NCBI RefSeq assembly: GCF_039403185.1
Contig: NZ_CP135047.1
Location: forward strand, 248,001 to 312,000
Reading direction: 5' to 3'
Origin: Buchnera aphidicola (Formosaphis micheliae)
Lineage (GTDB): Bacteria; Pseudomonadota; Gammaproteobacteria; Enterobacterales; Enterobacteriaceae
DNA: 64,000 nt
The notes beneath the pieces are model-generated. The model did not search any database, was not told the DNA's origin, and saw nothing but the letters and a program-made list of their open reading frames with translations. The translations under genes and the position numbers were made by a program. How positions within the stretch are numbered: position 1 is the stretch's first letter; the number at the start of each line of letters is the position of its first letter. This document shows, in pieces, positions 27,724-38,862 of this stretch.

Positions 27724-27747
27724 ATTATTATATAATAATTTTTTTTC
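27724..27747 (+). terminator. Candidate terminator of sohB overlapping the suhB stop
   Basis: A perfect 16-base dyad of A and T (27724-27739) is followed directly by a run of T. It is placed 145 bases after sohB and reaches into the 3' end of convergent suhB. With no G-C pairs the stem would be weak. Confidence 0.35.
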
Positions 27748-28525
27748 CTTTTATATCAGATACAATTATTCTAAGTAGTTTAGAATTACCAATGATTACA
27801 GATTTAGAATGTAAATTATTGTAACAATTACCGGTTAATTCGCTAATAATTCCACCTGATTCTCGAATTTGTAATGCACCAGAAAAAAAATTGTTTTGTT
27901 CTATACATAGATCAAATAAACCATCTAATCGACCTGAAGCTAAATAAGCTAAATTTAATACAGAAGAACCGGATGATATATAATTAATATTATTAGACAA
28001 TAAAAATTCTATAATTTTAAAATAATTAATTTTATCAAATTTATTATTTGTAGGAATATTAATGCCTATCATACTATTTTTCAGAACATTAACTTCTGAA
28101 CATCTCATACGATATCCATTTAATTGAGCACCTTTTCCTCTAATAGAACTAAATAATTCATTTTTTAAAGGATCATATATTAATGAAGTTTCAATTTTAT
28201 TTTTAATGATAACTGCAATAGATAAACAAAAATGTGGAATTTTTTTTTTAAAATTAATTATTCCATCTAATGTATTTATTATCCAATAAATTTTATTTGT
28301 TTTTAATTGAAAATTATCATGTATAGTATATACAAAATGATTTGGATATGCTTTATGGATAATATTAATCATTTTTTTATAAATAGTATATTGTATAGTA
28401 TTAATGATATTTTCTTTACCATTATAATTTTCTACACTAGAGTATATTTTACCATCATAATTTTGAATTATTGTATTTCCTGCTTGTCTAGCAGCTCTTA
28501 CAGCAATATTAAGTACAGGATGCAT
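27728..28525 (-). CDS. suhB: SuhB-like inositol monophosphatase family protein with degraded active site
   Basis: The protein is clearly SuhB (start MHPVLNIAVRAARQAGN; YDPLKNELF, GKGAQLNGYRMR and NLAYLASGRLDG blocks; 265 residues versus 267 in E. coli). SuhB is both an inositol phosphatase and a structural part of the rRNA antitermination complex. Four of the five metal ligands are changed: E. coli D44 is Ile, E67 is Ile, D84 is Asn (NTLDG for DPLDG) and D212 is Asn (NNFFSG for WDFAAG); only D87 remains. Phosphatase activity is therefore unlikely, while the fold is kept. The simplest reading is retention for antitermination. It is flanked by convergent sohB and divergent rlmN. Confidence 0.9.
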   Translation of the reverse strand: MHPVLNIAVRAARQAGNTIIQNYDGKIYSSVENYNGKENIINTIQYTIYKKMINIIHKAYPNHFVYTIHDNFQLKTNKIYWIINTLDGIINFKKKIPHFCLSIAVIIKNKIETSLIYDPLKNELFSSIRGKGAQLNGYRMRCSEVNVLKNSMIGINIPTNNKFDKINYFKIIEFLLSNNINYISSGSSVLNLAYLASGRLDGLFDLCIEQNNFFSGALQIRESGGIISELTGNCYNNLHSKSVIIGNSKLLRIIVSDIKGKKIII

Positions 28526-36768: not shown

Positions 36769-38862
36769 TTAAGAATTATTTTGATGGTTTATTTTTTCCA
36801 AAAAATTTAATATCCATGTTATTCTAGAATTACAATTTATAATTTTATGTTTCAATTTTAATTGATTTACTGTATTAAATTTCCATTCTATTAATTCTTT
36901 TTTTAAAATTACTAATAAATATTCAATGTTAATAGAATTAATTTGACAAAAATCAATAATACTATTTAATTTATTAGATTTTATATAATTAATTCCTATT
37001 TTTTTAGATAAAATACGTATTTTAGAAACAGTAATCAAATTATGTATTTCTTGGGGTATAGATCCAAATTGATAAATTAACTCATATTTTAAATCAACTA
37101 ATTCTTTTAAATCTTGAACACTAGAAATTTTTTTGTAATAATCAAGTCTAATATTCATACTATTAATATATGACTCAGGAATTAACGCTGTAACAGATAA
37201 TTCTATTTCTGGTTGATTATTCAGAATTTCTTCTAAAGATAGAATATTATTATTTTTTATGTTAATAACAGCTTGATTTAATAATTCTGTATATAAAGTA
37301 ATGCCAATATTGTTTACATGGCCACTTTGCTCAATTCCTAAAATTTCACCTATACCTCTAATTTCAAGATCTTGCATAGATAAAGTTAGTCCAGATCCAA
37401 AATCTTTTAATGATATTATTGCTTCAAATCTTTTTTTTGCTTCTGGTGTTATTTTTTCGTAATTAGATACTAGAAGCCAAGCGTATGCTTGATGGTATGA
37501 TCTACCTACTCTACCACGTAATTGATGCAATTGGGCTAAACCAAAACGATCTGCTTTTTCAACAATAATTGTATTAACATTAGGTATGTCAATTCCTGTT
37601 TCAATAATTGCTGTACAAACAAGAACGTTAATTTTATTTTGAGTAAAATTTAACATAACTTTTTTTAATTCATGTGTACTCATTTGACCATGTCCAATAT
37701 CTATTTTTACTTCTGGTACTAATGTACATATTTTTTTTGCTGTATTTTTAATTTTTTTTACTTCATTACATAAGTAAAAAACTTGACCTCCTCTTAATAT
37801 TTCTTTAATAATTACTCTTTTAATTAATGAGTCATTATATTCTCGAATAAAAGTTTTTACTGTTAATCTCTTTTCTGGTGGAGTAGAAATAATTGACATA
37901 TCTCTAATACCACTCATACCCATATTTAATGTACGTGGAATTGGTGTGGCCGTTAGTGTTATAATATCTATATTTAAAAACATAGATTTAATATATTCTT
38001 TTTGTTGAACACCAAATCTATGCTCTTCATCAATAATCAATAAACCTAAATTATTCCATCTAATTTTTTTAAATAATAACAAATGAGTTCCAATTAATAT
38101 ATTTACTGTACTATCATGTACACTTTTAATACTAACAGATTGTTTTTTGTTACTACATAATCTAGATAAAATTTCAATTTTATAAGAAAAGTTAGAAAAC
38201 CGTTTTTTAAAGCTATTATAATGTTGTTGAGCTAAAAGAGTTGTAGGTACTAATACAACGACTTGTTTATTGTTACTAACAGCTAAAAAAGCTGCTCTCA
38301 TTGCTACTTCGGTTTTTCCAAATCCAACATCTCCACATATAATTCTATCCATAGGAACTGATTTTTTCATATCGCATAATACTGAATTAATTGCATTACT
38401 TTGGTCAGAAGTAATTTCAAAAGGACAGTCTTTACAAAATAAATTATATTTATTTTTATCTAAATGAAAAGCAAATCCTTTTTTTGCTATTCTGCTAGAA
38501 TATGTATCTAATAACATAGTAGCTACATCATTTATTTTTTTAATAGCTTTTTTTTTGACTTTATTCCAGCTATCAGATCCTAACTTATTTAAAGATATAT
38601 TTTTTTGTGAAAAATTTGTATAACGACTAATCAAATATAAATAAGTAACTGGTACATACAATTTTGCTTTATTGGCATATTCCAATATTAAATATTCATT
38701 TTTTACACCAGTAATTTCGATCACTTTTAATCCTTTATATCGACCAATTCCATGTGTAAAATGTACCACTATTTGATCTTTTTTAAGTTCAGATAGATTA
38801 TTAAAATATGTGTTAAAATTATTTTTTTTAACTTCAAAAAAATTATTATTATAGTGTAACAT
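36769..38862 (-). CDS. mfd: Transcription-repair coupling factor Mfd, N-terminally truncated
   Basis: Mfd pushes stalled RNA polymerase off DNA and, in full form, recruits UvrA. This protein has 697 residues versus 1148 in E. coli. It starts just before the RNA polymerase interaction domain (HFTHGIGRYKGL at about residue 34), then has the complete helicase core: GDVGFGKTEVA (Walker A), DEEHRFG (Walker B), TATPIPRTL, and QLRGRVGRSHHQ-type TRG motif (QLRGRVGRSYHQ), and the C-terminal domain 7. The UvrB-like, UvrA-binding N-terminal modules are absent; an in-frame TAA lies 24 bases before the ATG, so no extension is possible in this frame. A role in clearing stalled polymerase is plausible; coupling to repair is not. 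Confidence 0.9.
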   Translation of the reverse strand: MLHYNNNFFEVKKNNFNTYFNNLSELKKDQIVVHFTHGIGRYKGLKVIEITGVKNEYLILEYANKAKLYVPVTYLYLISRYTNFSQKNISLNKLGSDSWNKVKKKAIKKINDVATMLLDTYSSRIAKKGFAFHLDKNKYNLFCKDCPFEITSDQSNAINSVLCDMKKSVPMDRIICGDVGFGKTEVAMRAAFLAVSNNKQVVVLVPTTLLAQQHYNSFKKRFSNFSYKIEILSRLCSNKKQSVSIKSVHDSTVNILIGTHLLLFKKIRWNNLGLLIIDEEHRFGVQQKEYIKSMFLNIDIITLTATPIPRTLNMGMSGIRDMSIISTPPEKRLTVKTFIREYNDSLIKRVIIKEILRGGQVFYLCNEVKKIKNTAKKICTLVPEVKIDIGHGQMSTHELKKVMLNFTQNKINVLVCTAIIETGIDIPNVNTIIVEKADRFGLAQLHQLRGRVGRSYHQAYAWLLVSNYEKITPEAKKRFEAIISLKDFGSGLTLSMQDLEIRGIGEILGIEQSGHVNNIGITLYTELLNQAVINIKNNNILSLEEILNNQPEIELSVTALIPESYINSMNIRLDYYKKISSVQDLKELVDLKYELIYQFGSIPQEIHNLITVSKIRILSKKIGINYIKSNKLNSIIDFCQINSINIEYLLVILKKELIEWKFNTVNQLKLKHKIINCNSRITWILNFLEKINHQNNS

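Follow-up and report, generated by a model that had tools for sequence, protein, structure and literature searches.

Why would a genome of 563 kb retain an intact gene for an inositol-monophosphatase-family protein in which most of the catalytic metal ligands have been replaced? The gene in question, suhB, lies in the window, as we call the whole 64,000-nucleotide stretch of DNA analysed here, and its product is the sole PF00459 protein found in the window genome. According to PMC6614801, E. coli SuhB contacts both NusA AR2 and the RNA signal, and the integration of NusB/E as well as antitermination depend on it; the KL251/254AA exchange destroys AR2 binding, SuhB variants without RNA polymerase binding fail to complement, and the effects of suhB mutants can be relieved without phosphatase activity. 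SuhB was presented as a Nus factor in PMC4807359 (2016), which reports enzyme activity without an obvious metabolic need in E. coli, and calls a link between the rRNA role and the enzyme activity possible while leaving it open. Phosphatase-dead E. coli SuhB mutants retain the growth-supporting function, according to PMC6614801 and PMC4807359, which refer to Chen and Roberts 2000 and Wang 2007 on this point. In window SuhB, by contrast, the change was made by nature, and it struck several ligands together in numerous lineages.

The suhB open reading frame begins with an ATG codon, encodes 265 aa and contains zero internal stops; the claim of the preliminary description that the frame is intact over 265 residues is thus borne out by a single open frame. 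The protein is a member of PF00459 (Pfam, 1.3e-30), and its top NCBIfam model is PRK10757 (SuhB; 1e-65, 221.4 bits), in a near full-length alignment that places window residues 1-259 on profile positions 1-258 of 267. The score lies below the curated PRK10757 cut-off of 332 bits: window SuhB is an orthologue divergent enough to go unnamed in an automatic annotation that relied on this model only. The best sequence matches in the PDB were chains of E. coli SuhB (phmmer, 3.5e-57), its orthologue by best match, to which it is 36-38% identical over the whole length (PDB 2qfl, 6ib7, 6ib8 and 6tqn). Structure modelling, a check proposed in the preliminary description, yielded an AlphaFold2 model with a mean pLDDT of 85.6, whose predicted fold is the same as, and comes closest to, that of E. 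coli SuhB (2qfl: Z 33.4, rmsd 2.9, 260 residues aligned). The model also matches the SuhB chains of the antitermination complex 6tqn. Since the input alignment consisted mostly of intact SuhB, the model indicates compatibility with this fold and is no proof of it. The gene is flanked by sohB and rlmN, whose identities are backed by Pfam, with, judging from sequence features, rluB before and hisS after; the order rluB/sohB/suhB/rlmN/hisS is common to three congeneric genomes (G001-G003).

Table 1. Position of suhB in the window, of the codons aligned with the metal ligands of E. coli SuhB, and of the stretch aligned with its NusA-AR2 contact. In residue pairs, the E. coli SuhB number stands first and the window SuhB number second.
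Feature	Position	Strand	Basis
suhB, disarmed inositol-monophosphatase-family protein (SuhB orthologue)	27728..28525	-	family models, PDB matches, predicted fold
codon at metal ligand D44: CAA, Gln45 (lost)	28391..28393	-	alignment to E. coli SuhB
codon at metal ligand E67: ATA, Ile68 (lost)	28322..28324	-	alignment to E. coli SuhB
codon at metal ligand D84: AAT, Asn84 (lost)	28274..28276	-	alignment to E. coli SuhB
codon at metal ligand D87: GAT, Asp87 (kept)	28265..28267	-	alignment to E. coli SuhB
codon at metal ligand D212: AAT, Asn212 (lost)	27890..27892	-	alignment to E. coli SuhB
stretch aligned with E. coli SuhB K251 to L254 (NusA-AR2 contact in PMC6614801)	27761..27772	-	alignment

E. 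coli SuhB carries five metal ligands, whereas window SuhB lacks four of them and has other pocket residues changed as well (Table 1). The ligand states were identical in three alignments, obtained with phmmer, with MAFFT and with a profile of large-genome SuhB. The preliminary description was therefore right that four of the five ligands are lost and that D87 is the sole survivor, and wrong in naming Ile as the replacement of D44: Ile is the residue at raw position 44, and the residue aligned with D44 is Gln45. The same four ligands are lost in three congeneric genomes, with partly different replacements (ITNDN, VTNDN and ITNDN at positions 44/67/84/87/212). Further active-site changes in window SuhB comprise T89 to Ile, A188 to Ser and E205 to Asp, at positions that, by comparison with human IMPase, line the pocket. 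Of the five ligands expected in a catalytically active inositol monophosphatase, window SuhB possesses D87 alone and, judging from these residues, it has probably lost its phosphatase activity.

To place this protein among its relatives, 145 SuhB genes were read from genomes of the family in three size classes. All five ligands were present in 52 of the 53 copies from genomes of at least 3 Mb, a proportion that may overstate the purity of this class since its copies are mostly best-scoring loci and not a random choice, and that leaves out G173 (3.1 Mb, weak match of 2.4e-87). The complete set was found in 5 of 16 copies from genomes of 1.3 to 3 Mb, and in none of the 76 copies from genomes below 1.3 Mb, which represent 41 genera. 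These 76 copies keep no ligand in 20 cases, one in 36 (35 if L125, a copy clipped by the read region and not by the genome, is dropped), two in 14 and three in 6; the second alignment, based on the profile of large-genome SuhB, gave a split of 18/38/14/6. Ligand loss is the rule among the family's small genomes and no peculiarity of the window genome, and an alignment of many SuhB copies, which the preliminary description had recommended for endosymbionts, reveals it as recurrent. Within the sample, SuhB was present in 96 of the 112 family genomes below 1.3 Mb, and was read in 76 of those 96; the 16 genomes without a usable SuhB include one fragmented assembly (G347). Across the entire sample the presence count was 379/392 genomes, which takes in those having a paralogue or a fragment as their sole match (G031, G121, G126, G347 and G385). 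Judged by gene content, size and base composition, our guess is that the small genomes of the family belong to insect symbionts in general. The matches listed in a scan of named organisms came mostly from free-living bacteria; among them, lost SuhB ligands were seen in at least two symbionts, Candidatus Steffania adelgidicola and the secondary endosymbiont of Heteropsylla cubana.

The losses did not stem from a single event. Replacement residues at the ligand positions differ among lineages, and a ligand can be present in one member of a genus and lost in another, as observed for E67 in g63, D44 in g140 and D87 in g19. In genus g72, the 3.6-Mb member is intact and three members of 0.7-0.9 Mb are disarmed; no single lost ligand is common to all three, which implies at least two losses within this genus. 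Moreover, the sets of lost ligands in G063 {44}, G116 {87, 212} and G074 {67, 84} do not overlap, so that at least three losses can be counted with no need of a tree. Trees of rpoB, with irreversible loss assumed, gave 14 (LG, FastTree) or 25 (Dayhoff-recoded) independent losses of the full ligand set, counts that are only rough because single-gene trees of AT-rich symbionts are unreliable.

In genus g94, SuhB is already disarmed in G096 and G217 (3.3 and 2.1 Mb; loci L124 and L123). G096 is the single exception among the 53 large-genome copies, and its case indicates that ligand loss can precede strong genome shrinkage.

As a control for mutation pressure we used CysQ, the 3'(2'),5'-bisphosphate nucleotidase, which has PF00459 and the fold family in common with SuhB as well as the same five ligands. 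Among the 25 small genomes with both CysQ and a complete SuhB, the five ligands are kept by CysQ in 25 and by SuhB in 0. A first CysQ set, drawn from the SuhB profile, was intact in 31/31 cases, one of them (L159) being a relative but no true CysQ. The possibility that CysQ is found only when intact was rejected when a repeat with TIGR01331 in 80 genomes again gave all five ligands in 27/27 clear copies; the weaker TIGR01331 matches were SuhB itself, partial frames located on one G016 contig, a second family member in G121 and a near-chance match in G236. Intact CysQ and disarmed SuhB thus occur in the same genomes, with the same base composition and the same fold family, which rules out AT drift alone as the cause, a candidate that is also rejected by AT-rich genomes outside the family in which the ligands are kept. 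Intact CysQ stands alongside SuhB in the three congeneric genomes (the sisters L043, L044 and L045); in the window genome (G000), searches with PF00459 and TIGR01331 found no CysQ.

Beyond the family but within the class, 20 SuhB-like copies were examined in genomes of at most 1.5 Mb, the weak matches L372 and L373 being omitted as not SuhB-like. All five ligands are kept in 15 of these copies. Several of the genomes with complete copies are AT-rich, for instance G694 (0.9 Mb, 31% GC at the locus) and G454 (1.1 Mb, 29% GC at the locus). Small size alone is consequently insufficient, and the ligand-loss rule is not universal for small genomes. The five incomplete copies (in G587, G666, G696, G556 and G764) show that the SuhB change arose beyond the family too.

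One of these copies, L355 (G587; genus g206, family f52), has lost only D212 when compared with the related L354 and L356 (G442 and G694), and is possibly a fresh case of disarming.

We then asked how the disarmed genes evolve. All 75 complete small-genome SuhB frames are open and span 249-294 aa. Within genera, dN/dS according to NG86 was 0.12-0.52 for small-genome SuhB (46 pairs) and 0.12-0.44 for CysQ (11 pairs). Among four congeneric genomes it amounted to 0.18-0.34 for suhB, 0.14-0.31 for rlmN, 0.17-0.34 for hisS, 0.13-0.33 for rluB and 0.12-0.45 for sohB; NG86 ignores codon bias, so that all these values are approximate, and the gene-to-gene comparison is like with like. A dN/dS near 1, set beforehand as the outcome speaking against a maintained protein, was not seen, the values of suhB being similar to those of its neighbours. 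Since the dN/dS of the disarmed genes is like that of CysQ and of the neighbouring genes, SuhB is not decaying.

The residue pattern points in the same direction. For the 159 columns whose conservation in large genomes reaches at least 97%, mean retention in small genomes, weighted by genus, was 57%. The metal ligands are retained less than other conserved columns (p = 0.004), with 13% for D44, 14% for D84, 16% for E67, 22% for D212 and 58% for D87, and the other pocket positions reach 10% (A188), 17% (T89) and 24% (E205). Furthermore, large genomes have 21 invariant acidic columns; retention in small genomes averages 25% for the five ligands among them and 56% for the remaining 16 (genus-weighted means; Mann-Whitney p = 0.009), with 82-99% at E222, E123, D118, D201 and D191. 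Retention is 99-100% at Y59, W81, N91, Y117, F125, N136, L190, Y194, P97, R141 and E222. Some non-catalytic positions, namely G35, the C-terminal tail and R184, are poorly retained too; residue loss in SuhB is concentrated on the active site, yet not confined there.

Ligand loss under selection is therefore well shown: the ligands are lost, the frame and the predicted fold are kept, and dN/dS is well below 1. The reading that we prefer, with a probability of about 0.78, is that window suhB encodes a pseudoenzyme under purifying selection which most likely works solely as a structural Nus factor. The earlier proposal of a pseudoenzyme kept for work other than that of a phosphatase gains strength from the parallel cases, the intact CysQ paralogue and the low dN/dS. 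A phosphatase centre deprived of four of its five ligands and of further pocket residues would no longer hold its metal ions; the folded protein would still be made, and purifying selection would keep it. SuhB would join the rRNA transcription complex together with NusA, NusB/NusE, NusG and the boxA of the nascent leader. Its preserved body would bind NusA and the leader RNA, allow NusB/E to enter when NusA is present and counteract termination, as in E. coli. The same disarming has arisen many times among small-genome lineages of the family, by all appearances at an early stage of genome reduction, and suhB would have survived because even a tiny genome cannot do without rRNA, whereas it can probably dispense with inositol phosphate chemistry. 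That suhB is expressed and fulfils a Nus role in these small-genome bacteria is what we infer.

The E. coli SuhB system includes a NusA with both repeats, NusB and boxA, and all three are also found in the window genome. The boxA sequence TGCTCTTTAA has its sole exact copy in that genome 101 nt upstream of the mature 16S, in the rRNA leader. Genome-wide, near-matches are no more frequent than those of the reversed pattern (17 and 16 vs 44 and 41); what is informative is solely where the one exact copy lies. NusA is encoded by an open frame of 510 codons with two matches to TIGR01954 (C-terminal acidic repeat), both just below the cut-off. NusB is recognised at 3.2e-43, and in the 392-genome sample it is missing only from genus g102. 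The AR2-binding residues of window SuhB are conservatively replaced, K251 by Arg and L254 by Val; K or R occupies position 251 in 59 of the 76 small-genome copies, and the AR2-binding C-terminal helix is moderately conserved. Helix conservation and presence of AR2 were compared across too few cases for any trend. Antitermination as the remaining role, suggested in the preliminary description, is consistent with boxA, the NusA repeats, NusB and the E. coli work.

The NusA repeats also bear on another reading, according to which SuhB is a maintained pseudoenzyme with a job other than antitermination, such as ribosome association or another protein contact. The repeats were not detected in 19 genomes of the 392-genome sample, and several genera, g77 and g147, retain SuhB without a detectable NusA repeat; in those genera SuhB would have either a role that does not depend on the repeat or another use. 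Among the 112 family genomes below 1.3 Mb, the repeats are lacking in 9 of the 16 without SuhB and in 10 of the 96 with it (p = 0.0001). This co-loss is suggestive when counted by genome, and not when counted by genus (p = 0.08, not significant), a result that leaves room for another job, as does a title in the reference list of PMC6614801, in which P. aeruginosa SuhB is described as ribosome-associated. Against this stand the presence of boxA and NusB in the window genome and the recruitment of SuhB to the E. coli complex, which excerpts of PMC6614801 describe as independent of AR2, so that an absent repeat does not exclude a Nus role. We regard a different job as unlikely, albeit as the competing explanation with the most to be said for it.

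The best kept of the five ligands, D87 (43 of 76 small-genome copies), might instead indicate that SuhB still catalyses a reaction or binds a ligand, though in an altered way, through D87 or new residues, the more so as the adjacent G88 is kept at 80% and N91 at 100% (genus-weighted). However, 20 of the 76 small copies are devoid of any ligand and 33 of D87, the replacements vary by lineage, T89 and E205 are lost too (17% and 24% kept), and D87 could serve the fold as a turn before a helix; a changed activity thus appears very doubtful. Decay of a SuhB no longer needed, with the ligand losses as its first visible damage, is the least probable explanation and is largely refuted by dN/dS and intact frames: the genome is AT-rich and divergence high, the commonest change, D to N, takes a single G-to-A step (Asn at position 84 in 57/76), and SuhB is broken in G121 (a remnant with stops) and absent from several of the smallest genomes, but the 75/75 open frames, a dN/dS resembling that of CysQ and of neighbouring genes, and a loss that centres on the active site and spares other invariant acidic residues all argue to the contrary.

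If the pseudoenzyme under selection is accepted, it is conceivable, though in our view rather unlikely, that loss of the metal site was favoured and not merely tolerated once inositol-phosphate chemistry had become irrelevant. A cluster of five carboxylates that no longer coordinates a useful metal ion could destabilise the protein; alternatively, a form carrying metal and substrate could compete with the one bound to RNA and NusA. Lineages of the family that are restricted to hosts would then repeatedly turn SuhB into a dedicated Nus factor, early and before most of their genome shrinkage.

Returning to SuhB as a structural Nus factor, the pattern suggests that its job as antitermination helper alone matters in small genomes. 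The experiment of removing the catalytic centre and leaving the protein in place seems to have been carried out in dozens of small genomes. A known moonlighting protein would have been turned repeatedly into a pure scaffold, a finding broader than the single genome considered at the outset. If this is true, SuhB can fulfil its conserved role without enzyme activity, and the residues common to the disarmed copies (Y59, W81, N91, Y117, F125, N136, L190, Y194 and others) map the needs of the Nus role and of the fold. In the openly licensed PMC literature we found no earlier report of recurrent SuhB ligand loss. Elsewhere, suhB is listed among the ancestrally essential genes of the family (PMC11481867), Buchnera suhB was omitted from a metabolic model as unconnected (PMC2649895), and a Buchnera gene table lists suhB for Calaphidinae plus Phyllaphidinae (PMC11188193), where losses are supposedly meant; the accessible portion of PMC12508126 makes no mention of SuhB. 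In Blochmannia floridanus, Bfl535, which may be suhB or another family member, has been assigned to the inositol pathway as a putative inositol monophosphatase (excerpt of PMC1360075), and caution is due when such genes are annotated into inositol metabolism.

Further observations were made in passing. The SuhB proteins L154 and L155, from G251 and G149 of genus g147, measure about 294 aa, and their C-terminal part lies off the profile (positions 1-227 of 258); the C-terminal repeat of NusA was not detected in these two genomes. An Mfd-like frame in the window (36769-38862, minus strand) encodes only 697 aa. E. coli Mfd has about 1150 aa, so the N-terminal part is seemingly missing. Finally, suhB persists in G121 (1.2 Mb) as a remnant with several stops (L156). 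This genome has kept CysQ, another member of the family and the two NusA repeats, and its NusB gives an unusually weak match (2.1e-16).
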